DNA of 34,451 nt, taken from assembly GCA_029260055.1 (NCBI GenBank), contig JAJDDX010000174.1, positions 1 to 34,451 of the forward strand, in the 5' to 3' direction. Positions within the stretch are counted from its first letter, which is position 1. Each line of letters opens with the position of its first letter. Below are positions 4,444-25,602 of this stretch, piece after piece. The position numbers and the translations under genes were made by a program. The notes under the pieces were generated by a model. It made no database searches. It saw only the letters and a list, made by a program, of their open reading frames with translations, and was not told the origin of the DNA. This stretch comes from Phycisphaerae bacterium (lineage in GTDB: Bacteria; Planctomycetota; Phycisphaerae; UBA1845).

Positions 4444-5217
4444 TCAGCTGAGCCCCTGTTGGACGAGCGGCTGGCTTGCCGCCGGCTCGTCGGTCTTGTT
4501 CGCTCCGCCTTCCGCAACGAGTCTCCATGCATGATCGAGAGACGGGAACGTTCCGGCGTCGGTCCACCAGCCGTCGAGAACATCGTAGCTCATCTTGCCC
4601 TGTTCGATGTAGGCGTTGTTTACGTCGGTGATCTCCAACTCGCCACGCCCGGACGGCTCCAGAGTACGGATGATGTCAAAGACCTGATGGTCGTACATGT
4701 AGATCCCGATCACCGCGAGTTCGCTCTTGGGCGCGGACGGTTTCTCCTCGATCGCGACGATGCGGCGATCCTTGATTTCGGCCACACCGAATCGTTCGGG
4801 ATCGGGCACGGCCTTGAGCAGAATCCGAGCTCCGCCGGGTTGCCTGGAGAACTCCGCGACGGCACCTCGAATGTTGTTCTCGATGATGTTGTCGCCCAGG
4901 ACGATGACGATCTTGTCGCCATCCGCGAAGTGTTCAGCCAGCCGCAGTGCGTCGGCAATGCCTCCTTCGCCCTCCTGGTAAGTGTAATGGAGATCTTGTA
5001 GGCCGAACTCGTGGCCGTTGCCGAGCAGCCGCAGGAAATCACCGGCGTCGTTGCCGCCTGTGACAATCATGATTTCCTCGATGCCCGCCGTGACCAGGCA
5101 TTCGATCGGATAGTAGATCATCGGCTTGTTATAGACGGGCAGCAGGTGCTTGTTCGTCACGCGCGTGAGCGGTGACAGCCGCGTGCCAAGACCGCCTGCC
5201 AGGATCACACCCTTCAT
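4444..5217 (-). CDS. rfbA: Glucose-1-phosphate thymidylyltransferase (short type)
   Basis: A 257-residue sugar nucleotidyltransferase that makes dTDP-glucose, the entry point of the rhamnose pathway. The signature loop GGLGTRLSPLT with a following KHLLPV segment is intact at about residues 7-27, as are VLGDNIIENN (metal-binding Asp region) and EKPSAPKSELAVIGIYMYD. It is shorter than the roughly 290-residue classic RmlA, which fits the short RmlA-like class. The alternative upstream start (MIGQERTAD) would overlap the preceding stop; the ATG at 5215-5217 lies one base after the cupin gene and puts the first beta strand at the N-terminus. Confidence 0.92.
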   Translation of the reverse strand: MKGVILAGGLGTRLSPLTRVTNKHLLPVYNKPMIYYPIECLVTAGIEEIMIVTGGNDAGDFLRLLGNGHEFGLQDLHYTYQEGEGGIADALRLAEHFADGDKIVIVLGDNIIENNIRGAVAEFSRQPGGARILLKAVPDPERFGVAEIKDRRIVAIEEKPSAPKSELAVIGIYMYDHQVFDIIRTLEPSGRGELEITDVNNAYIEQGKMSYDVLDGWWTDAGTFPSLDHAWRLVAEGGANKTDEPAASQPLVQQGLS

Positions 5218-5218
5218 A

Positions 5219-5683
5219 TCAGCCGTCCTTTCTTGCCCAATCATACGGGATGTCGCTGTCGTGGGGGTCCGCGCGGAATTCGTCGGGATCGTCGTAGTCG
5301 TAGAGCTCCGTCACGGTGTTGATCACAATAGCCTCGCAATCGCTGATGCACTTGAAACCGTGGTAGACCAGCGGTGGGATTTGCAGCAGCATCGGGTTGT
5401 ACTCGCCCATGAAGAACTCGTTGACCTTACCCTGCGTCGGCGAGCCCTCGCGGCTGTCAAACAGGACCACCTTCATCATGCCCCGGACGCAGACGAAGTG
5501 ATCCCACTGCTTCTTGTGGTAATGCCAGGCCTTGACCACGCCTGGATAGGCGGTCGTCATGTAGACTTGGCCGAACTTCTCCAGAAGCCCGTCGTCGGCA
5601 CGGAGCATCTCCATGAGCCGACCGCGCTCGTCCGGAATGACCTTGAGTCGCTTGATTTGTACGTCGTGAATCATCTGTGACAC
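5219..5683 (-). CDS. RmlC-like cupin, dTDP-4-dehydrorhamnose 3,5-epimerase family
   Basis: A small (about 154-residue) cupin resembling dTDP-4-dehydrorhamnose 3,5-epimerase, the step between RmlB and RmlD. It has the early histidine motif WHYHKKQWDHFVC, a VVLFDSREGSPT strand like the RmlC 'VDLRxxSPT', the IPPLVYHGFKC motif, and a TELYDYDDPDEFR tail. It is shorter than standard RmlC (about 180 residues) and diverged at the HYQ site, so a related sugar epimerase or isomerase is possible. Two starts compete. I prefer the GTG at 5681-5683 because a GGAGG lies nine bases upstream; the ATG at 5672-5674 would be 18 bases from it. It is one base from the next gene, and its position in an rmlCABD order supports the rhamnose role. 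Confidence 0.8.
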   Translation of the reverse strand: MSQMIHDVQIKRLKVIPDERGRLMEMLRADDGLLEKFGQVYMTTAYPGVVKAWHYHKKQWDHFVCVRGMMKVVLFDSREGSPTQGKVNEFFMGEYNPMLLQIPPLVYHGFKCISDCEAIVINTVTELYDYDDPDEFRADPHDSDIPYDWARKDG

Positions 5684-6828: not shown

Positions 6829-8835
6829 TCACGCGGCGACGAGATCCGCAGCTACACATGGTTTCCAGTGATCCAACCCTCGTCCCAACGCGGCCGCGCG
6901 TGTGTTGAAGCTCTCCAGGTACAAATGCGCCATGAGCTGTAGCGTAAGGAGCCCGACAAGCGCCATCTCCTCTCGTTCGCCCGACATCCGGCCGCCCCGT
7001 CGACGAGCCTTGTCGACTAGCTTCGTCGCCGGACCGCAGTCCACCAAGCCAAACCGCGCGAGATAGGAAGGCGACAACAACTCCTCGACATAGTCAGGTG
7101 ACGCGGCACCGAACAGAGCGCGGGTCATCGGCGCGCGGTAGGGCTGTTTCGGACGCTGCCAGATGTCGCGGGGAAGGCGGCTGGCTGCGAGATTGCGCAA
7201 AGCTACCTTGTCCCGCAGGCCGCAGAGCTTCATACGTGCAGGCAGGCCGGCGCAGAAGTCGACTACTTCGGGATCCAAGAACGGATAGCGGACCTCTACG
7301 CTGTGCCCCATGGCAACGCGATCGCCCTGACAGCTGAGCAGATAGGAACTCATGAACGTCGTCATCTCGATGAGTTGGGCGCGCGACAGAGGCCGCCATT
7401 GGCGCCACCCTGGGGGAAGCATGCTCTCCAGGTCCGCCTCGATCTGGCCGTCGGTGATGGCGGCCCGTATATCCGGAGCCAGGAATCGCAACGCCCAGGC
7501 GGTGTTCTGCCATCGGACCATATGCGAGTAGAACGGGTGGTGTACTTCGGCTAGGCCACGACGGAAGAACTGCTGCCAAAGCCCGGTGGATTGTGTGGCG
7601 CCTTGCCCGATATAGGGGTACAGCCGGGCCAGAAGGGCGGGGCGGGCCGTGGAATCGGGCTGGCGGGCCCAGAACCTGCGCACCTTGTCCTCCTTGAAGA
7701 TGTGATAGCCTGCTAGGAGTTCGTCCGCTCCTTCGCCGGTGAGGACGACTTTCATCCCGTGCGATCGCACGATTTGCGAGAGCATGAAGAGCGGCGCTGG
7801 GGCTGTCCTGAGGAGGGGGGTCTCACAGTGCCATATGACCTCGCGCAGGACTTCGCCGATATCCGCGTCGCGGCAACGAATCTCGTGATGTTCCGTACCG
7901 AGCAACTCCGCCATGCGCCTTTGCTCGACCGTCTCGTCAAACTCGGGATCGTCAAAACGAACGGCGAAGGTCTGAAGGCGGCTCCCGTCGGTGTCGCGGA
8001 TAAGGGAGGCGATGACCGACGAGTCCAACCCGCCGCTGAGATAGGCGCCGACCGGCACGTCCGCCCGCAATCGCACGTTGACAGCGTGGTCAAGCCGCTC
8101 ACCCAATCCCTCGACAGCTTCGTGGAGGGGCATCGCCGCCAGCCCACCGTTCTCGGCGAAGTTTGGTCTCCAATACGTACTTACTCGCTCCGTGAGTTTC
8201 TCGTCGAACGAAACGGCTCGCCCGGGCGAGACACTCTGAACCCTCTGGAAAACCGTTGCGGGAGAGGGGGCCGCCCAGCGCGAAAACACCTTCACCAGGC
8301 CGGCGCCGTCAAAGGCGGGTTCGAGTTGCCCGCTGGCGAATAGCGCCTTCGCTTCGGAGGCGAAGAGTACCCGATCCGCAACACGCGCATAATAGAGGGG
8401 AAGGATGCCGACGCGGTCGCGCACCAACCAGAGCCGCCGTGACCGGTTGTCCCACAAGGCGAATGCGAATTGACCATTGAACTTGGCCCAGGCCTGCTGC
8501 CCGTACTCCTCGAAACTGTGAACGATCACCTCGGTGTCGCCACGCGTGTAGAAGCGATGCCCGCAGCGCTCCAAATCCCGGCGGAGCTCGACGTAGTTGA
8601 ATATCTCGCCGTTGAAGGTGATCCACACCGAACGGTCTTCGTTGTGGATCGGCTGAGCGCCGCCGGCAAGATCGATGATGCTCAAGCGGGTGTGGGCCAG
8701 CCCGACCCTGTCATCACGATACAACCCGTATCCGTCCGGTCCCCGGTGCCGCAGCATCGCTGCCATATCGCGAAGCTGCGCAAAGGGGACCGGGGCCATG
8801 CCCGCCTCGATATACATGCCGGCAATACCGCACAT
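6829..8835 (-). CDS. asnB: Asparagine synthase (glutamine-hydrolysing) family amidotransferase
   Basis: A 668-residue two-domain enzyme. The N-terminal glutaminase domain begins MCGIAG, with Cys2 as nucleophile after Met removal, and continues with RHRGPDGYG, LSIIDL and FNGEIFNY. The C-terminal synthetase domain has the ATP pyrophosphatase loop SGGLDS at residues 267-272 and TGEGADELLAGYH. It would move glutamine-derived ammonia to an adenylated carboxylate. Exosortase-linked gene clusters commonly carry an AsnB paralog whose substrate is not asparagine but an unknown cell-surface precursor; the location here between an acyl ligase and a NAD-synthase homolog favours that view. A gap of about 120 bases with no gene separates it from the ligase. 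Confidence 0.88.
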   Translation of the reverse strand: MCGIAGMYIEAGMAPVPFAQLRDMAAMLRHRGPDGYGLYRDDRVGLAHTRLSIIDLAGGAQPIHNEDRSVWITFNGEIFNYVELRRDLERCGHRFYTRGDTEVIVHSFEEYGQQAWAKFNGQFAFALWDNRSRRLWLVRDRVGILPLYYARVADRVLFASEAKALFASGQLEPAFDGAGLVKVFSRWAAPSPATVFQRVQSVSPGRAVSFDEKLTERVSTYWRPNFAENGGLAAMPLHEAVEGLGERLDHAVNVRLRADVPVGAYLSGGLDSSVIASLIRDTDGSRLQTFAVRFDDPEFDETVEQRRMAELLGTEHHEIRCRDADIGEVLREVIWHCETPLLRTAPAPLFMLSQIVRSHGMKVVLTGEGADELLAGYHIFKEDKVRRFWARQPDSTARPALLARLYPYIGQGATQSTGLWQQFFRRGLAEVHHPFYSHMVRWQNTAWALRFLAPDIRAAITDGQIEADLESMLPPGWRQWRPLSRAQLIEMTTFMSSYLLSCQGDRVAMGHSVEVRYPFLDPEVVDFCAGLPARMKLCGLRDKVALRNLAASRLPRDIWQRPKQPYRAPMTRALFGAASPDYVEELLSPSYLARFGLVDCGPATKLVDKARRRGGRMSGEREEMALVGLLTLQLMAHLYLESFNTRAAALGRGLDHWKPCVAADLVAA

Positions 8836-8957: not shown

Positions 8958-10478
8958 CTAGCGTCTCTTGATCTTCCCCGAGTCGGTCTTGGGCAGCGAT
9001 CCGCGGAACTCGACGAACTTGGGGACCAGGTAGTTCTCGAGGTTAGCGCGGCAGTGCTGGCGGATCTGCTGTTGGGTCAGCCCCGCACCGTTGCGGGGGA
9101 CTACGATGACCTTGATCGCTTGCCCGTCGATGGGGTCGTCCACGCCGATCACCGCGGCCTCGCTGACGTCATCCAGGGCGTAAAGGACGTTTTCGATCTC
9201 CTTGGGGCTGATCTTCTCGCCCTTGCATTTGAAGATGTCGTCCTTGCGTCCCACAAAGTAGAGAAAGCCCTCCTCGTCGGCGCGAAACAGGTCCCCGGTC
9301 AAGAGCACTTTCTCGCCCGGGATCTCGCCATCCTTCAAGCGCTCCTCGGTCTCGACCGGTTTGCCCCAGTATCCGCGCATCACATTGGCTCCGCGTACGA
9401 CCAGCTCGCCGACCACGCCGGGACCGACTCTCCGTCCGCCCTCGTCCACGACATAGGCTTCCGCGTTCGGCATAGCCTTGCCGACAGACGTGATTCTGTC
9501 CGCCAGCCTCTCCGGCGGCAGGTAGCCCACGCGCGTGCACTCGGTCAACCCGTACATGGAAAAGACCTGCGCGGCCGGGAAAAGCGCCTGGAGCTTGCGA
9601 ATGTGGGCGGGCGGGAAGGCCGCCCCGGTGTTGGAGAAGTACCGAAACGACGAGAGATCGAGACCGTCGAAGGGCGCCATCTGGAGTAGCGTCGCGAATA
9701 TCGTGGGAACGCCCGGCAGGCCTGTCACCCGGCATTCCTGAATCCGCTCGAGGATGCGGTAAGGAAAAGCAAAGGACCGTTCGAGAATGACCGTGAACCC
9801 GACTCGCGCTCCGGTCAGAATCTGGTACAAGCCGTAATCGAACGAGAGCGGAAGCACGCAGATGACCACATCGTCCGGAACGTTCCTAAGGTACGTCGAG
9901 ATCGACCACGTCGTGTTCGCCATGTTGTGATGCGTCAACATGACGCCCTTCGGGTGGCCTGTGGATCCCGATGTGTAGATGATGGACGCCAGATCCCGGT
10001 CAATCAGGCCGGGATCGCTCGGCGCCCCCGTGTCGCAGGCAAGCAGATCGACGAAGCATTGCCCGGGCGGGGCATCCGCCGCCGCCGGCGCCGTCCAGAT
10101 GACCGGTGGCGGCAACGACAATGCGGCGATCGTGGGACCCACCACGGCCGTCAAGCTCGGCTGCGCTATCAAGACCGACGCGCCACAGTCCTGGAGGATG
10201 TATGTGAGCTTCGCACGCTTCGCCGTGGGGTTCACGATCACGAACACGCCGCCCGCCTTCAGAATGCCGAAGACGGACACCACGACTTCTGCGGAGTTGT
10301 CCGCGAACACGGCGACGCGATCGCCACGCGACACACGCGCGCGCTGAAGCGCACAGGCAAGACGATCGCTGGCACGATCGATCTGACCGAACGTGTGGGT
10401 GGCGTCGCCGCAAACCACCGCGGCCTTTTCCGGCCATCGATCGGCGCTCGCATGCAAGAAGTCGTGAACCAGTATCAT
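8958..10478 (-). CDS. AMP-forming acyl-CoA/acyl-ACP ligase, exosortase-cluster type
   Basis: A 506-residue ANL-superfamily adenylate-forming enzyme. The P-loop motif is YTSGSTGHPKG (about residues 168-178), followed by MYGLTE, TGDLFRADEEGFLYFVGR in recognisable blocks (for example TGDLF), KCKGEKISPKEIE and the C-terminal catalytic lysine in PKTDSGKIKRR. It would activate a carboxylic acid as an acyl-AMP and pass it to a thiol of CoA or a carrier protein. The acyl carrier protein at 983-1240 is the likely partner. This is the first gene of the minus-strand operon. The ATG at 10476-10478 has no obvious Shine-Dalgarno, so a leaderless or weak start is possible. The acid substrate cannot be read from sequence. 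Confidence 0.9.
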   Translation of the reverse strand: MILVHDFLHASADRWPEKAAVVCGDATHTFGQIDRASDRLACALQRARVSRGDRVAVFADNSAEVVVSVFGILKAGGVFVIVNPTAKRAKLTYILQDCGASVLIAQPSLTAVVGPTIAALSLPPPVIWTAPAAADAPPGQCFVDLLACDTGAPSDPGLIDRDLASIIYTSGSTGHPKGVMLTHHNMANTTWSISTYLRNVPDDVVICVLPLSFDYGLYQILTGARVGFTVILERSFAFPYRILERIQECRVTGLPGVPTIFATLLQMAPFDGLDLSSFRYFSNTGAAFPPAHIRKLQALFPAAQVFSMYGLTECTRVGYLPPERLADRITSVGKAMPNAEAYVVDEGGRRVGPGVVGELVVRGANVMRGYWGKPVETEERLKDGEIPGEKVLLTGDLFRADEEGFLYFVGRKDDIFKCKGEKISPKEIENVLYALDDVSEAAVIGVDDPIDGQAIKVIVVPRNGAGLTQQQIRQHCRANLENYLVPKFVEFRGSLPKTDSGKIKRR

Positions 10479-11709: not shown

Positions 11710-13722
11710 GTGTCGACCACGCCAGCGCGAGAAACCAACTCGACGCGCATGCCGTTTCTGCCGGCTCGCGGAACATATGGTGCGGTGGATGTCGTCGTTC
11801 TTGAGAGTGCCATGTGGCCGACGCCTTCATGGCTTGGCGAGTCCCCGCGCGCGCTTCTGCCGCTGCCCGGCACGACGATACTCGAGGCGTTGCTTACCGA
11901 GTTGGGAACCGCCTTTGGCGGATGTATCGTCATCAGCGCGGCCAGCGATGGCGCACGGGCCGTGCGAGAAGTCGTGCAGCGGGGGCTGGGGGCGCAGAAG
12001 GTCCGCCTTGTCGAACAATCGCTGCCGCGAGGCGCGGCCGGGTGCATCAAGGCCTGCGAAGCGGGCTTTCGTACCGACGCTATCTTCGTCGCTGACGCGG
12101 CGGTCTGGCTCGAGGACGATCCGGAGTGGATGCTCAGGCAACATCAGGAACAAGGAAATGCCCTGACGGTCTTTTGTACGCGCCGCGCGTGTGGCGGTCG
12201 AGCCTTCCGGAACGGACGGATCGAGCCCGTCGGCCTCTATTGTTGTGACCGCGTCGTGCTGGATTTCGTTTCCGATCGGGGTTATCAGGATCTCAAAGAG
12301 CAACTCGTGCCGCGGCTTAGGCGAGCCGGGCTCAGGGTCGGGGCTGTCGTGCTGCCGGGCCAAACCCGGGAAGTCGTTGACTGGGCAACGTATCTGCATG
12401 CCCTGGAGAGATCACTGCATAGCTCGCGTCTTAGGGACCGCGGCTTCAGGCAACTCGCGCCGGGGGTCTGGTGCGGCGACTCGGTGGACATCGACGATCG
12501 GGCACGCGTGGTCGGTCCCGCATTCCTGGGCAGCGGCTGCACACTCGACGCCGGATCGGTCGTGGCGGGCCCCGCGTTCTTGGGAGATGGGTCTCATATC
12601 GGTTCACGGGCTTGGCTCGAACGCGTGGTAGCGCCACGGTGCGTGCGGATCGAGGCCGGAACTACCCTTACGGACGAGTTGCTGTGGGACCCGGTACGGC
12701 GACTCGAGGCCGGTAGCGCCGGCTTCGCGGAGGACTGGGCCGGTGTGGACGCAACGGCGACACTAACCGACCCGCCGTCGCCGCGACCCACAGCCCCGAG
12801 ATCGCCGGCGACGTCCCTGGCCGGAGCTTTGGCGAGTCCGACTGCAGCTGTCCTCGGCATAGTCAGCCTGTTCATTTGGGCGTTCCGCCACACATTCTCG
12901 GACCTTTGGCATGTCTGGCAGACGGACGCCGACTACGGGGCCGGCCAACTCGTCCCTGTTGTCGCCGCCTACATGGTTTTCGCCCGCAAGGACTGTCTCA
13001 AAGACCTGCGCATCGAGTTCAGCCTGGGAGGGCTCATCGTCTTCGGAATGGGGCTGACGGTGAATCTGCTGGGCTGCTCCTTCCTGTATTCGTCGCTCCA
13101 GAACTTGGGGCTTGTCGTATGCGCCAACGGGCTTGCCATGACTTTGCTGGGATGGCAAGGGTACAGACGTGTGTGGTACCCGCTGGTGTTCTTGCTGCTG
13201 ATGCTTCCATTGCCGGGAGGCGTTCACGATGCCGTGATGCTGCCCCTCCAGGGTTTCAGCGCGGTGATCTCCGGTGGCATACTCGAGGTCGTCGGCGTGC
13301 CGGTCGTGCGTTACGGTCACGTGCTGGAGGTCGGACAGCGGCAGATCGCGGTGGCGGAAGCCTGCAACGGCCTCCGTATGGCTCTGGCGTTCATCCTGGT
13401 GGCCGGCTCGGTCGCTTATCTCGTCCGGCGCCCCGGCTGGCAACGGGGTGTGCTCCTGCTGTCCAGCATACCGATCGCGATCACCTGCAACGTCGTTCGA
13501 ATCGTGCTGGCTGCCTGCCTCTATCGGGCTGGTTACGAGTGGCTCGCCGCCGGCACCGTGCACGACCTGGCGGGGCTTCTCATGATGCCGGCGGCTCTGT
13601 GTCTGATGTTCCTTGAACTCTGGCTGTTGACGGGCCTGACGCGATCGGTGAGCGAGGTGAAGCGCTTCGGCGCTGTATCCGCCGACCTTGCGTCGGTTCC
13701 GTCGAGGGGCACACTCGGATGA
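11710..13722 (+). CDS. Exosortase fused to an N-terminal nucleotidyltransferase-like/beta-helix domain
   Basis: This 670-residue protein joins two parts. Residues about 20-250 follow the layout of a sugar-1-phosphate nucleotidyltransferase (PRALLPLPGTTILEALL matches the 'PKALLPVxGKPIL' strand-helix), but the GGxGTR nucleotide loop is missing. Residues about 254-325 are hexapeptide-like repeats of a left-handed beta-helix. From about 378 it is a multi-pass membrane exosortase with the full catalytic triad: Cys552 in AEACNGLRM, Arg597 in CNVVRIV and His618 in TVHDLAG. Exosortases cleave PEP-CTERM-type tails at the inner membrane. The GTG at 11710 has a GGA about eight bases upstream; an in-frame ATG at 11749 has none. 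The gene ends with an ATGA overlap into EpsI. The fusion is discussed in the findings. Confidence 0.9.
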   Translation: MSTTPARETNSTRMPFLPARGTYGAVDVVVLESAMWPTPSWLGESPRALLPLPGTTILEALLTELGTAFGGCIVISAASDGARAVREVVQRGLGAQKVRLVEQSLPRGAAGCIKACEAGFRTDAIFVADAAVWLEDDPEWMLRQHQEQGNALTVFCTRRACGGRAFRNGRIEPVGLYCCDRVVLDFVSDRGYQDLKEQLVPRLRRAGLRVGAVVLPGQTREVVDWATYLHALERSLHSSRLRDRGFRQLAPGVWCGDSVDIDDRARVVGPAFLGSGCTLDAGSVVAGPAFLGDGSHIGSRAWLERVVAPRCVRIEAGTTLTDELLWDPVRRLEAGSAGFAEDWAGVDATATLTDPPSPRPTAPRSPATSLAGALASPTAAVLGIVSLFIWAFRHTFSDLWHVWQTDADYGAGQLVPVVAAYMVFARKDCLKDLRIEFSLGGLIVFGMGLTVNLLGCSFLYSSLQNLGLVVCANGLAMTLLGWQGYRRVWYPLVFLLLMLPLPGGVHDAVMLPLQGFSAVISGGILEVVGVPVVRYGHVLEVGQRQIAVAEACNGLRMALAFILVAGSVAYLVRRPGWQRGVLLLSSIPIAITCNVVRIVLAACLYRAGYEWLAAGTVHDLAGLLMMPAALCLMFLELWLLTGLTRSVSEVKRFGAVSADLASVPSRGTLG

Positions 13723-14459
13723 TCGGGAATCGCACAGCGCGACGGTACGCATGTGCCGTATGTGTGCTGCTTGTCGCCGGCTCGCTCCACGGTGCGATGC
13801 GTGCGTCGCGCGCAGGCGCTGCCTCAGTCTATCGACCGCTTTCGGTGCCGCTTTCGACGCTTCCGACGCAAATCGGTCCCTATCTCTACCGTCAGGACCT
13901 GACACTCGGTGCCGAGGTCATTCAGATCGCCGGCGTGGACAGGGTCGCCTACCGGGAGTACGCCGACACCGTGACGGGGCGGCCCTTGCACGTGTACGTT
14001 GGTTACTGGGGACGGCAGAACGCGGGGCTGGGCCATGGGCCGGATGTCTGCTATCCGGCGACGGGGTGGAGAAGCGAAGGTCCCGCCCGACATGACGTGC
14101 TCCGGTTCGTCGGCATCGACGGGACGAGCCTCGAGGCGCCGTTAATCACCCACCATTTCGAGCGCGCAGCGCCCGGCGGGATCCAACGCCGCGCGGTCGC
14201 GTTTCTGGCGGTAATAGGGGGGCAGTTCTGCTCGGATTGGCGGGGCGGGTTCCAGCATCGCCCGCCGGATTCGCCGAATGAGGGTTTCGTGGCGCACATT
14301 CAGGTTGCCACACCGGTGATCGGCTCGGCTTGGGAGGAAGCGGATCGGTGCGTGTCCGACCTGATGGAGGGGTTGCTGCCCGGTGCTTCGAGGTGCCTGT
14401 TCCGGAGCGAGCGGAGCACGCGCGAACGCCTCTCGCCGACACACGTGAGGGAAGGATGA
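13719..14459 (+). CDS. epsI: Exosortase-associated EpsI family protein (DUF3485)
   Basis: A 246-residue protein with an N-terminal hydrophobic signal or anchor (about residues 11-24) and an extracytoplasmic domain. The family hallmark GHGPDVCYPATGW is at residues 105-117, including Cys111. EpsI proteins are encoded beside or fused to exosortases and are thought to help exosortase or exopolysaccharide function outside the membrane; the exact role is unknown. It overlaps the exosortase stop by four bases (ATGA) and likewise overlaps the next gene, so the three are probably translated as a coupled unit. The Arg/Ser-rich last 20 residues are unremarkable. Confidence 0.88.
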   Translation: MIGNRTARRYACAVCVLLVAGSLHGAMRASRAGAASVYRPLSVPLSTLPTQIGPYLYRQDLTLGAEVIQIAGVDRVAYREYADTVTGRPLHVYVGYWGRQNAGLGHGPDVCYPATGWRSEGPARHDVLRFVGIDGTSLEAPLITHHFERAAPGGIQRRAVAFLAVIGGQFCSDWRGGFQHRPPDSPNEGFVAHIQVATPVIGSAWEEADRCVSDLMEGLLPGASRCLFRSERSTRERLSPTHVREG

Positions 14460-16594
14460 GCGACACACATGACCTGGTGGTAGCGATGCCCACTGAGCCG
14501 GCGGAGGCCGTCCGTTACGACGCGATCACCGAGTCCGGGGCCCTTGCGCCCGCGCTGCGATGCCGGTGGCGCACGGCGATGGTGGTCACGTTGACGATCG
14601 GGGCGGCTCTGGCTGCGGCGGTGTGGACGTTCGTTCGCCCGATGTACAAAGTCAGCGCCACAGCGCATGTCGCTCCCGTTGTCCGTCCCATCTTGTTCAA
14701 GGATGCGGACACGGACATCACTCGACGATACCACGAGTATATGGCCACCGAGGCGACCGTCATCGCCAGTCCCGCCGTGATCCTGGCTACGCTCGCGACT
14801 CCGGAAGTCCGGTCCCTGCGTTTCGTCACGACCACGCCTGCGCCGGAGCGCGCGATTACCTCAAGACTGGAGGTGGAGCAGATCTCCGGCACGCAGCTAC
14901 TGGAGATCTGTATGGTTGGCGACAGCGCCGAAGACATGGCCGTCATCGTCAACAGTCTCCTGGAGACTTACCTCCGCAAGAGCGGGGAGAAGAAGCAGGA
15001 GTGGGACGAGAAGATCCTCCATTCGCTGCGAGCCGAACAGGCCGAGCTTCAGGCTCGGATCAACGTGAAAAACATCGAGCTGCGGCAGCTCGCGACGGAG
15101 AACGGCCTCGCCACACCCGAAGACCCCGGTGCCGCGGGAACGACATGGGTGGCCGAACTGCGGCGGCTGCTCACGGAGGCACGGAAGGACCGGGCTTTGG
15201 CACAGGCCAAGCTGGAGGCGCTCGATGCCTCAAAGGGCGCCGACGAGTTCGTCGGAGCCACCTCCGAGGGGTATCGGGATTATCGCCGCGCCGATCCGGA
15301 ATGGCAGGACACGCACGGCCGACTCACGATGCTCGAAACGGCGGTGTTGGACGACGACCGGCTCGGGCGGGGCGCCCAGCATCCGGACGTGAAGGACCGT
15401 GCCGGGCGCCTCGAGAGCCTCCGCGCTGCGCTGAGCCTGCGAGAGTCGGAGCTTCGCGAGCAATGGCTAGGCTCGGTGCGGCAGCAACTGCTGGCTCAGC
15501 GGATGGACGCCGAGGTTACGACCACGGTGCTCGAGGCTGCGATCGACGATCTCAAGCTGCAGCAGTCAGAGGTGGCCCGGCAGACCTTCTTGCTGGACGA
15601 CATCCGCCACGAGCGCGAACGTCTTGAACATGCCCTCGCTCAGGTCCGGCAGAAAGTATGGAACGTGGAGGTGGAGCAGAACCGGATGGCGCGGGTGACG
15701 ATCGACTCGCGCGCCGTCGCGCCCGGCAAGCCGAACGTCGACAAGCGGCCCAAGTACACGGCCGCCGCTTGTCTGCTGAGCCTCTGTCTCGGCGCGGGGG
15801 CGGCCCTCCTTCGCCACCGCCTCGACAAGAGCGTGCGAGACCCCGCGGAGGTCACCGGTGTGTTGGGAATGACGCTCCTTGGCAGCATTCAACGCGTCCC
15901 CGGGACCAACGGCGCCATCCTGGCGTACGACGAGCGCGTGGCTGATCCACTTCGCGGTATCTCCGCAGCGCTGCTGGCGGCCTCGAAGGCCTCCAAGACG
16001 CACGGTCGATTGATCACGAGCCCCACGGCGCAGAGCGGAAAATCATCTCTGGCCGTGAATCTTGCCTGTAGTCTGGCTTCCACAGGCCGAAGCGTCCTGT
16101 TGGTCGACGGCGACAACAGCGGACAGGGGGTCACGCGGGCGTTCGAGAAGGTCAAAGCGTTGGGCTTGAACGAGTTCCTCCACGGCACGTGCGGCGCCGA
16201 GGCGGTTGTGCATGAAACGCATGTGGAAAACCTGAGGGTCATGCCGGCCGGCAGTCGGGACGTACGCTTCGGCGAGGTGCTCGCCAGCCGCCACGTTCAG
16301 GGCCGCCTGCGCGCCGTGTTCGAGCCGTACGACGAGGTCATCGTGGACTCGCCGCCGGTGCTGGCAAGCAGCGTGGCGGTCGTGCTGGCGACTCTCGTGG
16401 ACGAGGTCGTGATGGTGCTAAGAGCGGGGCGGTCCACGCAGCAGGAAGCTCAGACTGCCCGGCGATTGATGGAGACGGTGGGAGGCAAACTTAGCGGTGT
16501 CATCCTGAACGCCGTGGATCCCAAAACCGCGCCTTATTCGTACTACGGGTATGCTCCAATCGAATCCGACGCCTCGATGGAGACCAAGGACTAA
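14456..16594 (+). CDS. Wzc-like polysaccharide co-polymerase with BY-kinase domain
   Basis: A 712-residue inner-membrane protein controlling polysaccharide chain length and export. It has TM1 at about residues 41-60, a long periplasmic coiled-coil region (about 65-430, rich in Glu/Gln/Arg heptads), TM2 at about 434-453 and a cytoplasmic kinase domain. The kinase has Walker A SPTAQSGKSS (about 522-531), Walker A' VLLVDGD (about 547) and Walker B VIVDSPP (about 627). The C-terminal tail has a tyrosine cluster (PYSYYGYAP), the expected autophosphorylation region of bacterial tyrosine kinases. The start ATG at 14456 overlaps the EpsI stop by four bases; a longer upstream frame lies over EpsI and is rejected. 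Partners would be the Wza-like protein at 25603-26799 and the sugar transferase that follows. Confidence 0.9.
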   Translation: MSDTHDLVVAMPTEPAEAVRYDAITESGALAPALRCRWRTAMVVTLTIGAALAAAVWTFVRPMYKVSATAHVAPVVRPILFKDADTDITRRYHEYMATEATVIASPAVILATLATPEVRSLRFVTTTPAPERAITSRLEVEQISGTQLLEICMVGDSAEDMAVIVNSLLETYLRKSGEKKQEWDEKILHSLRAEQAELQARINVKNIELRQLATENGLATPEDPGAAGTTWVAELRRLLTEARKDRALAQAKLEALDASKGADEFVGATSEGYRDYRRADPEWQDTHGRLTMLETAVLDDDRLGRGAQHPDVKDRAGRLESLRAALSLRESELREQWLGSVRQQLLAQRMDAEVTTTVLEAAIDDLKLQQSEVARQTFLLDDIRHERERLEHALAQVRQKVWNVEVEQNRMARVTIDSRAVAPGKPNVDKRPKYTAAACLLSLCLGAGAALLRHRLDKSVRDPAEVTGVLGMTLLGSIQRVPGTNGAILAYDERVADPLRGISAALLAASKASKTHGRLITSPTAQSGKSSLAVNLACSLASTGRSVLLVDGDNSGQGVTRAFEKVKALGLNEFLHGTCGAEAVVHETHVENLRVMPAGSRDVRFGEVLASRHVQGRLRAVFEPYDEVIVDSPPVLASSVAVVLATLVDEVVMVLRAGRSTQQEAQTARRLMETVGGKLSGVILNAVDPKTAPYSYYGYAPIESDASMETKD

Positions 16595-18212
16595 GCGCGC
16601 ATTCCGACGGCGTTCGGGATGCCGCGCAGGGAGGATTGCCATCTTCCGCCGACCCACTGTCACGACGCTGATTCACTTCGACGCCTTAGCGTGCGGTCGA
16701 ACGGTTGCCGCCGGTTTCGCGGGGCTTGACAGTTGCGCCAAGTGCCTCCACGCAGTGCGGTCCCTCCGCCACGGAAACGGAAAGAGCCAAGCGTCCGTGC
16801 AGATCCTCCTGCCGGATTCATGCAGGCTCCGCGACGTAGCGCGCGCGCGCGAATTGGACGGGGCCTCGGTGATCGGCTACGCGGATGAGTTCGCGCTTGC
16901 GTCGACCTTTACGTGTAATGGACACGACGTCCGGATAGTGAACGGCAGGCTCGCGTCGGCTGTCAGCTGGCACGCGGTGAAGACGGGGGAACGGCGCCGG
17001 CACTGCGACGTGCTGGTGCTCTCGGTGCCGGACGACGCATCTGACGAGCACTATCCGGAGTCCGTGTGTGTCGACGCGACCGGACAAGTGATAAGCATCA
17101 GGCGGCACTATCCCGACTCCCCGGTGTCCGTGGATCTGCGGTCGGGGCGCGCAGTCGGCCTGATCTGTGCCGGAAGCAGCGCCGGCGCCATTGTCACGCA
17201 CCTCGCCGCGCACGGCTGGGGGCTCGACAGCATCGGCGGACTCACGCGGCGTTTCCACGTCGAGTGGTCCGACACCCCTTCGGCCCTCGGGCGACAGGCA
17301 CTCGGCGAACCCGCCGCAGTCCCCGACCGCAACGGTGCGCCGCCGCGGAAAAACGGCAACGAATTGTCCCGCCACCTGTCCGCGGCGCCGCCGAAGCTTG
17401 AGCCGGAAGCCAGCCTTCACCACCGGGCATCGCCCCGCCGAAACGGTCCAGGAGCGGCGGTTCTCCACTCCCAGCCGCGACCCGGAGCTTCGACGGCGTA
17501 CCGGTTCGCCAAGCGCTTCGGCGACATCGTCCTGTCTTCCGCCGCGCTATTGGTGCTGTTCCCAGTGCTGCTCGTGGTGGCGGTGATGATCAAGGTTACT
17601 TCGAAGGGGCCTGTGCTATTCGGCCATGTGCGCCAAGGCCTGGGCGGTCGAGAGTTCAAGTGCCTGAAGTTCCGCACCATGGTCACTGGGGCTCAAGCCA
17701 TTCAGAACGAACTCAGGAACGAGAACGAAGTGGATGGCCCACAGTTCAAGATCGCCCGCGACCCACGTCTTACCCGCGTGGGCGGCTGGTTGCGACGCTT
17801 CAACATAGACGAGGTTCCCCAGTTCGTGAATGTCCTGCTGGGCGACATGAGCCTGGTAGGGCCGAGGCCCTCGCCCGATGACGAAAACCAGTTCTGCCCC
17901 GTATGGCGTCGCGTTCGACTCTCGGTGCGACCCGGCATAACAGGCTTGTGGCAGGTCCTGCGCCTGCGCAGCCAATCCGACTCCGACTTCCAAGAATGGA
18001 TCTACTACGACCTGGAATACGTGACTCATCGTTCGCTCTGGCTCGACTGGCAGCTCCTGTGGCACACGCCGCATGCCATCTTCGCTTCGAGGAAGCTCGG
18101 CAAGTTCGCCGCCAAGCTTCAGCGACGCGGCATGTGCGTGCATTCCGCCAGGATTCCGCGCAGTGGCCCCCGCGAGTGCGATCGGGCTCGTCGTTCGGAG
18201 GGCAGACGGTGA
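16551..18212 (+). CDS. Polyprenyl-phosphate sugar-1-phosphate transferase with extra N-terminal domain
   Basis: The C-terminal half (about residues 310-520) is a bacterial sugar transferase that moves a sugar-1-phosphate onto undecaprenyl phosphate, the priming step of polysaccharide synthesis. It has a membrane segment at about 324-346, the KFRTM motif (about 373-377), NIDEVPQFVNVL, GDMSLVGPRP and RPGITGLWQV. The N-terminal half is soluble and not the usual multi-TM or CoA-binding-like part; segments such as CDVLVLSVPDD and SVCVDATGQVISI resemble a degenerate nucleotidyltransferase (inference). A Pro/Arg-rich linker (about 245-310) joins them. The start is uncertain: the ATG at 16551 overlaps the previous gene by 44 bases and has a weak ribosome site, but I find no better start before the conserved region. 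Confidence 0.85.
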   Translation: MLQSNPTPRWRPRTKRAFRRRSGCRAGRIAIFRRPTVTTLIHFDALACGRTVAAGFAGLDSCAKCLHAVRSLRHGNGKSQASVQILLPDSCRLRDVARARELDGASVIGYADEFALASTFTCNGHDVRIVNGRLASAVSWHAVKTGERRRHCDVLVLSVPDDASDEHYPESVCVDATGQVISIRRHYPDSPVSVDLRSGRAVGLICAGSSAGAIVTHLAAHGWGLDSIGGLTRRFHVEWSDTPSALGRQALGEPAAVPDRNGAPPRKNGNELSRHLSAAPPKLEPEASLHHRASPRRNGPGAAVLHSQPRPGASTAYRFAKRFGDIVLSSAALLVLFPVLLVVAVMIKVTSKGPVLFGHVRQGLGGREFKCLKFRTMVTGAQAIQNELRNENEVDGPQFKIARDPRLTRVGGWLRRFNIDEVPQFVNVLLGDMSLVGPRPSPDDENQFCPVWRRVRLSVRPGITGLWQVLRLRSQSDSDFQEWIYYDLEYVTHRSLWLDWQLLWHTPHAIFASRKLGKFAAKLQRRGMCVHSARIPRSGPRECDRARRSEGRR

Positions 18213-18279
18213 ACGTCCGGCGAGTCCGTGGCGTCGTTTGACGCCCGTCACGCGCGGCCAAGGCATAGGGACCCCCATC

Positions 18280-21200
18280 ATGCCTCGAAACCCGGAAGAG
18301 CACCGACGTGGACTTCGGCGCGTGCGATGGCTTCTGCTTGCCGGTTTCATCATTGCCGGTGGGGCGTGGGGCTCGTACGAGCTGTACGTGTTGCGGTTGC
18401 GGCAGAACACCGGCAAGTTACTCGTGCGCGCGCAGGAGGCCGTCGAAGCTGAGGATTGGGACGCCGCCGCGGTTGCCTACGGTCATTACCTGCAACGGCA
18501 GCCCGACGATGTCGAGGCGCTTGAGGCTTACGCCGACGTGCTTCTCGAACGGCTCGCGACGCGGGCGGATGCGACCGCCGCCGCGATCCGTGTGCTCCGG
18601 CGGCTGGTGAGCGCGAAGCCCGATAGCATCAAGGCCGTCAGGGATTCCACCGGTCTCTACCTTGCCATGCGCGACTTCGGCCCGGCCCGCGATATGGCGC
18701 AAAGCTGGCTTACCCTGGCTCCCGACTCGCCCGACGCCGCACTCGGGCTTGCCGCGGCACAGCGAGGACTTCGCAAGAGCGACGAGGCGGCACGTACCTT
18801 GGCTGAAGCAATAGAGCGGAGCCCCGGCGAGGCGAAGCTCTATCCGCTGCTTGTCACGCTGTTGGCTGACGATCTGGACCGCCCCGACGCCGCCGCGCAC
18901 CGCCTGGAACAAGCCCTCGTTGTCGGCCCCGAATCCGGCGATGTCCAACTCGCGGCGTTCTGGTTCCACAGTCGTCGTGGGACTACCGCGGATGCCGATC
19001 GTCATCTGCGACTCGCGCTCGACAGCGCGCCGGAGTCGTTGCGCGCGCTGCTCTCGGCGACGACATTCTACCTCTCGAGGGATCGCCCGGACGAGGCACG
19101 CGAGTGCCTTGACCGCGCCGGCGAGATTGCGCCGGGAAACCGGAACGTCTTGCTCGCTCGCGCTCTTTGGGCGCGTAAACAAGGGGAGCATTCATCCCTG
19201 CTGGATACGGCCGACGCGCTGCTCGACTACGCACAAGACACCGACCGAGCCTTCATAGAGAACGCTGCGGAATTGTACCTGCGCGCAGGATCACTCACAC
19301 AAGCCGATGAGTGCCTGAAGAAGCTGGCTGAGCTTCCCGGATCCGGCTCCGGCGCGGATCTCAACCTGCTACGGGGCATCCGGGCTGCTCTGGCGAGTGA
19401 CCACCACGCGGCCATCTCACACCTTCGGGCGGCGTTACGCGGCCAACCACCCGACCCATGGGCTCTGCACATGCTGGCTGTGTCCTGTACCGAGGTCGGT
19501 GACCTCGAAGCGGCTGCGGATGCGTGGCGACTCCTGGTACGCCACACGCGGGACGACAAGCGGGCTCGTCTGCAACTCGCCGAGTTGTCTTGGCGGCAGG
19601 GTCGCCTGGCGGAAGCAGTGGAGGCGGTTCGATCCATCGCCGGGCCCGCGGGAGGCCAAACCGCCGGCGGCGAACTCGTCGCGATTGCGTGCAGCCTGTG
19701 GGAGAGGGAGGGCACCAGCGGGTTCGAGGAGTACCGGGCGAGCCTTCGACCGACGTTGGACCTCGCCGCCGCGTCCGGACAGCACGGCGCGGCGTCGAAA
19801 CTCTGGCTGGTTCGTTGCCTGGTGCTCGGCGGGCTTCCGGACAAAGCCGTGGCGCTGTTCGATGAGCAACTCGTCGACGAGGCCGCCGGGATCGCCGTGG
19901 GGGCGGAGCTGATCCGCTTGTTCCTCGCCGAGGGACTGACAAATCGGGCGGATAAGGTTGTCGACGCGCTGATTCGAGAATTCCCGTTGGCGGTCGAGCC
20001 ACACGTTCTGAGAATCGAGGCATTGGCGTCCCAGGGGAGGATCGCCGAGGCTACGACGCACGTGATCCGGTGCGGTCTGCCGGTTGACTCGCGCGGGCCA
20101 GTGCATGCGGCTCTCGGACGGGGGCAGGTAGCTGCCGGGCAAGTCGAACGGGGCCTCGAGTCGTTGCGCCTTGCCGCCATGATACTCCCCCGAGATATCG
20201 CTGTCAGGCAGCAGCTCGCCAGGCATACGCCGGAACTGAGTGAGGCTCACGCGTGTTGTGACGAAATCCGTCTGATAGAGGGCGACGCGGGACTTCACTG
20301 GAAGCTGGAGAGAGCCGCCACCTTAATCAGGCTCGCACGATCCGACGAGTCCGCCGCCGAGTCCCGCGAGTTGCTCGACCAGTGCCTCGCCGAGCGACCC
20401 GAGTGGCGCCGGGCGCTGATTCTGCTCGGGCGCGCGCATGAGCGTGCGGGCAGGCTTGCCCAAGCCGTCGAGGCGTACCGATCCGCAACCGCCCACCGGG
20501 CGGAGCGCGGTGGGGATGCCGTAGCCATACATCTGGTGGAACTCCTGAACCAGCTAGGCCGGTTTGGAGAAGCCGATTCCCTGCTGCGGTCACTCGCGTC
20601 GTCGTCCAACGAGCCCTCGGTTCTTCACCTAGAGACGCGGCGACAACTTCGTGTCGGGGACATCGGCGCAGCACTGCAGACGGCGGAGCGCCTGGCTGAA
20701 CTCGAACCGCGCGTTCCGGCGCGGATCGCGTTGAACGCCGATCTCCACCTCCAAGCGGGCGACGCCGCGCGGGCAGAGGTGATCGCGAAGCGGGGGCTGC
20801 AACGATTCCCGGGATCCACGATCGTCGAGTGGTCGCTCTGTCGCGCGCTGCTTGCCCAGGGACGAGGCGACTCCGCCGAGGCTGTTGCCCGTGAGGCGGC
20901 CCAGCGGAGCGACGACGCCCCGCACTATCTCGTCTATGCGAACGTCCTTTCTCGCCTGGATCGTGAAGCGGACGCGGAAGCAGCCGTCGCACGGGCGCAA
21001 AAGGCTGCACCGCGGGACGCGGACACCTGGGCGGCGTGCGCCGACTTCTGGGCAGCGCATGACCGCCGCAAGCCGCAGCTCGACTGTGCGCGCAAGTCCG
21101 TTGCGCTGCGGGGTGTGGATCCGAGTCAGTCGCTAGCAATCGCCCGACTGCTGATCGCCGGCACAGCGCCCGACGAACATGCGGAGGCTGGTGCCATCGT

Positions 21201-22458
21201 GCGCCGACGCCTCGGCGCGGACCCAAACGACGCGGAAGCGCTGGTGCTTTCGGCGCAACTGGCGGTCTTGCAGACGCCGCCTGATCTCGCCGCGGCGGAG
21301 GCCGATCTCACTCTCGCCTTGTCGATCGATGCGAGACTGGTAAAGGCGTACAAGCTCCTCGGCTCGGTGCAATTCCGCGATGGCCGGTTTCAAGAAGCGC
21401 GCGAGACGGTTCTTGGAGGCATAGCGATCGCCGCGGGCGACCCTGACTTGCTTCTTGCGTCCGCGGAGATCCATGCCGCCCTGGGCGCTGCGGACAGGGC
21501 CATAGCTTCGCTCGGGCGGCTGTTGAGCCTGCGGCCTCGGATGCCTGCGGCCCAGCGTCTTCTCGCCCGGGTCTATCGGGAAGCCGGACAGGCGGACCGT
21601 GCCATCGCGTTTCTGGAAGCCGAGTTACGCGAGGGTCGCCGTACGGCGGATGAACTTACGATCCTCGCCGGGTTGTACGAGCATCAGCGGGATGGCGTGC
21701 GCGCCGGCGAGTTGCTGCGACGCGCGCACAAACTCGATCGGCGCTCGGCGAGGACGCACCGGGAACTACTGCGCTTCCAACTGAGGCAAGGCCACTTCGA
21801 GGGAATTCACGCGCTCGCCTCGGACCGGCGGCTGCATTTCCCGGAGGACGTGGAGTCGTGGGCTCTTGCCGGGCAGATGCTGGGCGGAACCGCGCCGGAC
21901 CCCAATCTGCGTGACACCGGTCTGAGGTGGTTGGGCGCCATCGCTCGAGATCACCCGGAGCATGCCGCGGATGCATTGCACCGCAGCGCGCTTTGCAGCT
22001 ATCAGCGCGGCGAGGTCGATCCGGCTGAAAACATGTTTCGGAAGGCCTTGGATCGTTCGCCCACACATCCCGGAGCCGTGAACGATCTTGCCTGGCTCTA
22101 TACCGAAGATCGCGGCGACCCCGAGCGGGCTCTGGCGCTGATTGACCGTTATCTGGAAGCGGGGGGAGCCGAGGGCGCGCACCTGCTCGACACGTACGGA
22201 GTGGCCCTCATGCGGGCCGGCCGGCTCGACGAAGCGCGGCGGAAACTCACTGCCTGTTTGAGGTTGGCCGGAAGATCTCGCACGCGGACAGCCGCCACGT
22301 TCCACTTGGGCCTTCTCCAGATAAGGGGCGGGGAGGTTATCCGTGGCGGGCACAGCGTGCGCGAGGCGCTCGACCTGGATGGACGGCTCGGCGGACTCAC
22401 CGACGACGAACGGGCCGAGGCGCTCCGGATCGTCTCGGCGCCGAACGCGCCCGGTTAG
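18280..22458 (+). CDS. Large membrane-anchored TPR-repeat protein
   Basis: A 1392-residue protein starting at the ATG 18280, with a basic N-terminus and one membrane helix at about residues 17-37. The rest is helical repeats rich in Ala, Leu, Arg, Asp and Glu, with many TPR-like units (for example AVAYGHYLQRQPDDVEAL near the start and AENMFRKALDRSPTHPGAVN near the end). TPR proteins are scaffolds. In proteobacterial exosortase loci a TPR lipoprotein (PrsT) of roughly 900 residues is common; this one is longer and has a membrane anchor instead of a lipobox. The frame is open back to 18073, but that part overlaps the sugar transferase. It lies 67 bases downstream of that gene. I infer a periplasmic scaffold for export or assembly. 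Confidence 0.85.
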   Translation: MPRNPEEHRRGLRRVRWLLLAGFIIAGGAWGSYELYVLRLRQNTGKLLVRAQEAVEAEDWDAAAVAYGHYLQRQPDDVEALEAYADVLLERLATRADATAAAIRVLRRLVSAKPDSIKAVRDSTGLYLAMRDFGPARDMAQSWLTLAPDSPDAALGLAAAQRGLRKSDEAARTLAEAIERSPGEAKLYPLLVTLLADDLDRPDAAAHRLEQALVVGPESGDVQLAAFWFHSRRGTTADADRHLRLALDSAPESLRALLSATTFYLSRDRPDEARECLDRAGEIAPGNRNVLLARALWARKQGEHSSLLDTADALLDYAQDTDRAFIENAAELYLRAGSLTQADECLKKLAELPGSGSGADLNLLRGIRAALASDHHAAISHLRAALRGQPPDPWALHMLAVSCTEVGDLEAAADAWRLLVRHTRDDKRARLQLAELSWRQGRLAEAVEAVRSIAGPAGGQTAGGELVAIACSLWEREGTSGFEEYRASLRPTLDLAAASGQHGAASKLWLVRCLVLGGLPDKAVALFDEQLVDEAAGIAVGAELIRLFLAEGLTNRADKVVDALIREFPLAVEPHVLRIEALASQGRIAEATTHVIRCGLPVDSRGPVHAALGRGQVAAGQVERGLESLRLAAMILPRDIAVRQQLARHTPELSEAHACCDEIRLIEGDAGLHWKLERAATLIRLARSDESAAESRELLDQCLAERPEWRRALILLGRAHERAGRLAQAVEAYRSATAHRAERGGDAVAIHLVELLNQLGRFGEADSLLRSLASSSNEPSVLHLETRRQLRVGDIGAALQTAERLAELEPRVPARIALNADLHLQAGDAARAEVIAKRGLQRFPGSTIVEWSLCRALLAQGRGDSAEAVAREAAQRSDDAPHYLVYANVLSRLDREADAEAAVARAQKAAPRDADTWAACADFWAAHDRRKPQLDCARKSVALRGVDPSQSLAIARLLIAGTAPDEHAEAGAIVRRRLGADPNDAEALVLSAQLAVLQTPPDLAAAEADLTLALSIDARLVKAYKLLGSVQFRDGRFQEARETVLGGIAIAAGDPDLLLASAEIHAALGAADRAIASLGRLLSLRPRMPAAQRLLARVYREAGQADRAIAFLEAELREGRRTADELTILAGLYEHQRDGVRAGELLRRAHKLDRRSARTHRELLRFQLRQGHFEGIHALASDRRLHFPEDVESWALAGQMLGGTAPDPNLRDTGLRWLGAIARDHPEHAADALHRSALCSYQRGEVDPAENMFRKALDRSPTHPGAVNDLAWLYTEDRGDPERALALIDRYLEAGGAEGAHLLDTYGVALMRAGRLDEARRKLTACLRLAGRSRTRTAATFHLGLLQIRGGEVIRGGHSVREALDLDGRLGGLTDDERAEALRIVSAPNAPG

Positions 22459-22702: not shown

Positions 22703-23422
22703 ATGAAGAATCCGTACTCTCGCGTTGCCATGCTCGCTGCGGTCCTCAGTGCGGTTGCCGCGCCGTCGCGGGCGGATCTGAGCGCGACCGTTGCACTCAC
22801 TGACAGCTACGGAGACAGCGGCGGTGCAGGTCACGGTGGTGAGTTTCTCGCCGCCTACTCGGGCTTCGATTTCACGCCCGCCACACTCAGTGAGGTCGCC
22901 GGCCATGTCGAGGTGTTCTGCGTCGAGCGGAGCGAGTTCGTAAGTTTCGGAACTCCCTACTTCGTGGAGATCAACACCGCGGCGGTAAACGGCGGAATCG
23001 GCGGCGGCTCGCCTGATCCTCTCAACGTCGAAACGGCATACCTCTACAACCAGTTCGTCACGCGCAACCTCGTCGGGTATGACTACGATGATACCGGTGT
23101 GGGTCGCACGGCGTCGGCGAATGCCGCGCAAAACGTGATCTGGTTCTTCGAGGACGAGCTGGAGGGGAACTCGTACAGGTGGGGGCTCACCGCGCAGGAG
23201 GCCGAGTTAGCTAGGGAGTTCTATCAGCAGGCCATCGCCACCGATTGGACGAACGTAGGCGAAGTGAGGATCATGAACCTGTACATGTCTGCCGACCGGA
23301 CCGGTCACAGGCAGGATCAACTCGTGATGGCCGTCGCTCCTGCTCCCGGCTCCACGTTTCTTGCCGTGCTGGGGCTTGCTCTGTGCGTCGCCGTCAGAAA
23401 GCGCTCCGGCGCAAGAGCCTGA
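22703..23422 (+). CDS. Secreted protein with PEP-CTERM-like sorting tail
   Basis: A 239-residue protein with a signal peptide (about residues 1-24, ending SRA) and a C-terminal sorting tail: VAPAPGS, a hydrophobic helix (about 216-232) and a basic end (RKRSGARA). That tripartite layout is the exosortase substrate signal, with 'PAPG' in place of PEP as in many non-proteobacterial versions. The middle domain (EVFCVERSEF, YFVEINTAAV, AAQNVIWFFEDELEG) resembles secreted PEP-CTERM proteins of unknown function with Asn/Gly/Asp-rich stretches. It is the probable cargo of the exosortase at 11710-13722. Its own promoter sits just upstream, so it is likely made in larger amounts than the machinery. Confidence 0.85.
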   Translation: MKNPYSRVAMLAAVLSAVAAPSRADLSATVALTDSYGDSGGAGHGGEFLAAYSGFDFTPATLSEVAGHVEVFCVERSEFVSFGTPYFVEINTAAVNGGIGGGSPDPLNVETAYLYNQFVTRNLVGYDYDDTGVGRTASANAAQNVIWFFEDELEGNSYRWGLTAQEAELAREFYQQAIATDWTNVGEVRIMNLYMSADRTGHRQDQLVMAVAPAPGSTFLAVLGLALCVAVRKRSGARA

Positions 23423-23668: not shown

Positions 23669-23787
23669 ACCCGCTCCGCGGGCGGGGCGCAGCCGGGGCG
23701 AACCTGCGCGTTTGCCAAGAATCAGCCAAGCCACTACCATGAGTGCCGTGCCAATCGGCGAATTGCGCTAATCGGATTCCTGGATCG

Positions 23788-24381
23788 ATGAGCCAAGAGG
23801 ACAGCCCGCCATCTCCGGCCCCGCAGCGCGGCTCGTCAGGCGACGGCGATGCGCAGCAGCCGGTCGGCGACCAGGTGTCCGACGTGGCGAGATTCGTCGG
23901 CCGCTGGTGGGTCTTGCATACCCGCTCGCGCAACGAGAAGGTCGTGGCCGAGCATCTCACCCGCGGAGGCGTCCAGCACTTCCTGCCCCTGGTGGGGCGT
24001 GGTCGACACCGCGGCTTGCCGAGGAGTCGCACGTCGATTCCGCTGTTTCCCGGATATGTTTTTCTCTGCGGCGGCCCCGAGGACCGCGAGAAGGCCCTCA
24101 AGACCAATCGGGTCGCCAACGTGCTCGATGTGGCCGATCAGGAGCGGCTGAGGCGGGAACTCAGCCGCATCGAACGCGTCGTGAGCAGCGCCGGACCCGT
24201 CGGCCTTTACCCTCGACTCAAGACCGGGTGCCGTTGTAGGGTCACTACCGGCAGTCTTATCGGGCTTGAAGGCGTCGTTGTTCGGCGTCCAGGCCCGTGG
24301 CGGGTATACGTCGGCGTGGCGTTCCTGGGGCAATCGGCGGAACTCGAGATCGATCCTTCCATGCTCGAAGTTCTCGATTGA
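23788..24381 (+). CDS. NusG/RfaH/UpxY-like transcription elongation factor
   Basis: A 197-residue NusG paralog. After a Gln/Pro-rich 30-residue N-terminus, the NGN domain has WWVLHTRSRNEKVVAEHL, FLPLV, and the IPLFPGYVFL strand; a C-terminal KOW-type segment (GCRCRVTTGSLIGLEGVVVRR) follows. Specialised NusG paralogs inside polysaccharide loci bind paused RNA polymerase and let it read through long, poorly translated operons. The surface-glycan setting and the short length support this over the housekeeping NusG. The ATG at 23788 is used because the in-frame upstream stretch to 23743 has no NusG similarity. It converges on the minus-strand gene at 24478-25101. Confidence 0.87.
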   Translation: MSQEDSPPSPAPQRGSSGDGDAQQPVGDQVSDVARFVGRWWVLHTRSRNEKVVAEHLTRGGVQHFLPLVGRGRHRGLPRSRTSIPLFPGYVFLCGGPEDREKALKTNRVANVLDVADQERLRRELSRIERVVSSAGPVGLYPRLKTGCRCRVTTGSLIGLEGVVVRRPGPWRVYVGVAFLGQSAELEIDPSMLEVLD

Positions 24382-25530: not shown

Positions 25531-25602
25531 AGACCCTGATGCGGCTGGCATTTCGCCTTGGTTGAACATGAGAAAAAACGACGAGTGGCGAGGATTACCA
25601 CG

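Follow-up and report, generated by a model that had tools for sequence, protein, structure and literature searches.

The window, a 34,451-nucleotide stretch from a Phycisphaerae bacterium, holds an exopolysaccharide (EPS)/PEP-CTERM locus with an unusual gene (11710–13722, plus strand). Its 670-residue product joins a degenerate nucleotidyltransferase (NTase)-like domain, a left-handed beta-helix (LbH) and a linker to an exosortase. The gene is preceded by dTDP-rhamnose genes, including a canonical glucose-1-phosphate thymidylyltransferase, RmlA (4444–5244, minus strand), whose motifs are intact and which served as our active comparison, and by genes for an asparagine-synthase-like amidotransferase (6829–8835, minus strand) and an acyl-CoA ligase (8958–10478, minus strand). 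The last two resemble proteins of exosortase A systems and score under the curated cut-offs of those models. Downstream, all on the plus strand, lie an EpsI/DUF3485 exosortase-associated protein (13719–14459), assigned by profiles as a conserved neighbor, which shares 4 bases with the fusion gene; a Wzc-like chain-length determinant/tyrosine autokinase (14330–16594, start uncertain); an initiating polyprenyl glycosylphosphotransferase (GPT; 16551–18212); a PrsT-like TPR protein of EPS/PEP-CTERM loci (18073–22458); a probable PEP-CTERM cargo protein (22703–23422), with a weak motif under the cut-off; an UpxY/RfaH-type transcription antiterminator (23743–24381); and a Wza-type polysaccharide export protein (25558–26799). 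The kinase, GPT, TPR and Wza assignments likewise rest on profile matches. Where the EPS locus ends, a different module begins with an IS3/IS481-type transposase (27143–28480, minus strand), followed by a SNF2 helicase with DUF3670 (29798–32479, plus strand) and a SWIM/HTH protein (32494–33807, plus strand).

A sequence-only reading of the window had described one frame linking a sugar-nucleotidyltransferase-like and hexapeptide region (about residues 20–325) to a complete exosortase with Cys552, Arg597 and His618, and each part of this description proved correct. The open reading frame runs for 670 codons without interruption from a GTG at 11710, with an alternative in-frame ATG at 11752. It encodes a GT-A NTase-like domain (residues ~26–240; 11785–12429), a short LbH (hexapeptide) domain (residues ~244–335; 12439–12714), a linker (residues 329–375; 12694–12834) and the exosortase domain (residues 376–644; 12835–13641). 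The linker is poorly conserved in alignments, has a predicted confidence (pLDDT) below 50 and is probably disordered. In homologues it evolves like coding sequence, at a fast rate (dN/dS 0.3–0.5). More than 40 homologous genes, one of them in a single-contig genome (G361), read through the junction between the halves without interruption, which rules out a frame error or a missed gene boundary. Since the two halves also resemble each other and their neighbors in GC3 (0.71 and 0.79, against 0.75–0.79 in the neighboring genes), a chimeric assembly can be dismissed as well. In one other genome (G638, contig C211; locus L098:2–3457), the NTase–exosortase frame continues, uninterrupted by a stop codon, into a Wzz/Wzc-like chain-length protein, giving an open frame of 1384 residues and a possible triple fusion.

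The C-terminal half is a complete exosortase. Pfam Exosortase_EpsH (PF09721) spans residues 386–640, the full length of the eight-transmembrane-helix domain (E = 2.8e-55; 187.9 bits against a cut-off of 25.7), and TIGR02602 scores 145.2 against a cut-off of 105.55. The catalytic residues Cys552 (13363–13365, in the context AEACNGLR), Arg597 (13498–13500) and His618 (13561–13563) stand in their usual contexts and are invariant in 13 fused homologues. The surroundings are also those expected of an exosortase: an EPS locus, an EpsI partner and PEP-CTERM cargo, with 18 PEP-CTERM matches over the cut-off in the genome, which encodes one further, unfused exosortase. The protein reached no named subclass, however, scoring far under the curated cut-off of every Xrt subclass model listed (XrtD, 158 against 400; XrtW, 149 against 425; XrtA, 134 against 208), and none of the listed NCBIfam exosortase models aligns into the NTase–LbH module. 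In the AlphaFold2 model the transmembrane helices start at residue 377. Judging by hydropathy and positive-inside loops, the N-terminal domain would lie in the cytoplasm and the Cys/Arg/His site in the periplasm.

Sequence profiles match the N-terminal half weakly (Hexapep, 0.002; NTP_transf_3, 0.005; both under the Pfam cut-off), and its PDB sequence match is 8x7s, a UTP–glucose-1-phosphate uridylyltransferase (E = 6e-8). An AlphaFold2 model computed from 11 sequences (mean pLDDT 74.7, mostly 80–95 across residues 110–320) consists of a GT-A domain (residues 27–240) and a short left-handed beta-helix (residues 246–325), followed by the low-confidence linker; this is the two-domain fold of NDP-sugar pyrophosphorylases that the structure prediction called for by the sequence-only reading was meant to look for. 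Residues 20–337 superpose on tlr0611 (8x7s) with a Foldseek E-value of 1.8e-16 and a VIA-align Z-score of 27.2 over 311 residues. Other structural matches include GMPPB and eIF2B-epsilon (Z 25–27), a chain of the GMPPA/GMPPB complex (Z 25.6), ADP-glucose pyrophosphorylase (Z 23) and an eIF2B entry titled 'sugar phosphate activation' (7kmf).

The fold is retained and the active site is not. We aligned 37 fused and 14 stand-alone copies of the domain with four RmlA controls from the same loci. All four controls keep the GTR arginine, the PK lysine and the metal-binding Asp of the GD motif. Among the 37 fused domains, a single one retains the arginine, a single one the Asp, and not one the lysine; the stand-alone domains have lost all three (0/14 in each case). 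The window protein itself lacks these three residues of active NDP-sugar pyrophosphorylases. Its GGxGTRL nucleotide-binding loop is replaced by ESAMWPTPSW (typically GSRDFGRCPLA in the class-wide clade); across the N-terminal domains, Arg, Thr or another residue stands in place of the lysine, and most copies have Ala, Gly or Ser instead of the metal Asp. The triphosphate loop is gone, and the family alignment has a gap where RmlA carries its EKP segment. Other features persist: the PRGTAG loop, which resembles a base-binding loop, is conserved together with the DxKE motif, whose glutamate is present in 35/37 fused and 14/14 stand-alone domains. In three homologue pairs with unsaturated synonymous change, dN/dS of the N-terminal domain was 0.05–0.17, against the much higher values of the linker. 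Because the catalytic residues have disappeared from nearly all copies and the domain is yet under purifying selection, as in an inactive GMPPA-like NTase–LbH subunit, it is most likely a conserved pseudoenzyme rather than an enzyme that makes precursors. The proposal that it is a working glycan-precursor domain thus finds no support, and the loss of the motifs disfavors any active precursor enzyme, with the proviso that an unrecognized activity may be compatible with that loss.

The same module also occurs outside the fusion. In relatives it is found as a stand-alone gene adjoining tyrosine kinase (TyrK) and GPT genes, and, in other families as well as in the window's order, initiating GPTs carry it at their N-terminal end (hhalign probability 99.8%, E = 9e-28 over 274 columns), so that many loci hold two modules. 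GPTs with a degenerate N-terminal NTase–LbH module lie at L040:7639–9423, L041:4515–6368, L043:3478–5307, L044:12588–14678, L045:8246–10381 and L046:10079–11914. For the window's own GPT, profile comparison detected no relation between its N-terminal region and the module; the model of that region is NTase-fold-like, of low confidence (pLDDT 52.7), and its structural matches include the GlmU and IspD folds. Another locus (L075) shows the unfused arrangement, with individual genes for the NTase-like protein, a PEP-CTERM protein, the exosortase and EpsI lying side by side. One genome (G061) carries both a fusion and a stand-alone module (loci L052 and L056), and there the stand-alone gene adjoins a GPT gene with an overlapping frame. 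As many relatives pair an unfused exosortase with a stand-alone module, the covalent tether is not essential. The occurrence of the module in relatives' EPS operons, free or fused to GPT, supports the earlier suggestion that sorting is coupled to glycan synthesis.

The fusion is a recurring architecture across Planctomycetota. A survey of related genomes, which the sequence-only reading had recommended for what it took to be the most unusual protein of the window, found it repeatedly: in 10 of the 51 genomes of the window's family (the G016 copy runs off the end of its contig); in 34 out of a sample of 298 genomes of the class Phycisphaerae, counting matches that span both halves, from seven families and including the single-contig genome; and, in a protein-query survey, in three genomes of one family in another class. 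It is thus neither unique nor an oddity of one contig. Within the window's family the order fusion–EpsI–kinase–GPT–TPR is conserved. On the tree of N-terminal domains, this family's fusions group with stand-alone copies from the same family, and the AU test rejects a topology with all fusions in one clade (p = 0.004), leaving the fused state in two separate clades. The exosortase tree does not reject a single fused clade (p = 0.57). Both origins compatible with the two trees are therefore possible: the halves may have fused twice, or once with some of the fusions splitting again later.

How does this protein compare with known systems? It shares with the exosortase family (EpsH; PF09721, TIGR02602; XrtA, XrtD and XrtW) the multi-transmembrane Cys/Arg/His enzyme, the EPS locus, the EpsI neighbor and the PEP-CTERM cargo, and it differs from the named Xrt classes in its low subclass scores and its N-terminal NTase–LbH module. 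The best family and structure matches of that module are the Rv-type mannose-1-phosphate guanylyltransferase (NF052502) and tlr0611, compared with which it lacks the catalytic motif residues and scores only ~30–93 bits against the NF052502 cut-off of 440. In its two-domain fold and degenerate active site it resembles subunits of the GMPPA, eIF2B gamma–epsilon and GlgD type, which are soluble, whereas the window's module is attached to a sortase in the membrane. GlgD and eIF2B gamma/epsilon are inactive NTase–LbH subunits with regulatory or scaffolding roles, and by this likeness a role of the same sort is likely for the module described here. Exosortase fusions to EpsI, at the C terminus, and to CAAX-protease-like domains were described by Haft in 2006 (PMC1569441). 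The logic of reading a gene fusion as a functional link is the same in those cases, but both the partner and the end differ, the partner here being an N-terminal, predicted cytoplasmic pseudo-nucleotidyltransferase; the earlier claim that the protein departs from the described fusions is upheld to that extent. We found no description of an NTase–exosortase fusion in the open-access literature, where absence is weak evidence; the NTase–LbH–exosortase fusion thus appears to be new, within an exosortase family whose EpsI and CAAX-protease fusions are already known.

What might the module do? In eIF2B, dead NTase–LbH modules bind partner subunits of the NTase-like kind and act as sensors of sugar metabolites. 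A second precedent is GMPPA, which is non-catalytic and binds both GDP-mannose and its active partner GMPPB (PMC11228364). From these two cases we infer that the exosortase docks to the glycan-initiating machinery: the protein is a true exosortase whose probably dead, predicted cytoplasmic N-terminal module would serve as a docking subunit, possibly gated by a sugar nucleotide, a reading to which we give about even credence. Its partner could be another NTase-like module of the locus, either the one carried by the initiating phosphoglycosyl transferase or that of an active pyrophosphorylase, and a bound sugar nucleotide may also switch the module. Docking of this kind would bring the periplasmic Cys–Arg–His site of sorting to the place of lipid-linked glycan synthesis; PEP-CTERM cargo would then be cleaved when precursors are available and perhaps also joined to a putative glycan acceptor. 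There is a parallel in archaeosortases, whose substrate maturation involves enzymes thought to make the lipid acceptor and which co-localize with those enzymes (PMC7157517).

Other readings account for part of the same evidence. Conservation of the PRGTAG loop and the DxKE motif in a domain without its catalytic residues is also what a pure ligand sensor would display, one that responds to a bound nucleotide sugar or sugar phosphate by allosterically opening or closing the exosortase, without any protein docking; the sugar-phosphate-activated eIF2B state among the structural matches and the binding of GDP-mannose by GMPPA point the same way. A disordered, poorly conserved linker of ~47 residues would nonetheless be a poor conduit for allostery, and both the triphosphate loop and a counterpart of the EKP segment are missing, which makes a sensor of this kind rather unlikely in our estimate. 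If, instead, the domain were still an active nucleotidyltransferase supplying sugar nucleotides locally to the EPS machinery, it would have to work with non-canonical catalytic residues. The fold, the position in an EPS operon and the retention, in the window's family, of a VxDWxxYL Asp aligned with the second metal ligand of RmlA would fit. We nevertheless regard this as very improbable: the arginine, lysine and metal Asp that RmlA of the same loci retains are lost in nearly all copies, and the window already has an intact RmlA and the genome four further pyrophosphorylase-like genes.

The fusion might also mean nothing for function, a pseudo-NTase gene having been joined to the neighboring exosortase for co-expression only, with halves that work independently. 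The many relatives in which module and exosortase are separate genes, and the little-constrained linker, are consistent with such a neutral join. Against it, the two fused clades of the N-domain tree, kept across at least eight families, go beyond a one-off event, a counterargument tempered by the exosortase tree, which alone does not reject a single clade; we consider neutrality quite improbable. The docking reading can also be extended. Paired pseudo-NTase modules on the exosortase and the GPT may assemble a complex in the membrane through which lipid-linked glycan, once initiated, is passed on to sorted proteins, and the exosortase of these Planctomycetota would then be a glycan-coupling transpeptidase under control of the sugar-nucleotide pool. 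This extension is speculative, and we think it unlikely as it stands.

That dozens of related genomes share the fusion suggests a physical tie between protein sorting and synthesis of the surface sugar coat. Together with the presence of the same module on the transferase that starts the glycan, the fusion offers a concrete, testable physical link between the exosortase and exopolysaccharide synthesis, and it would extend the short list of known regulatory pseudo-nucleotidyltransferases to a bacterial membrane protein.
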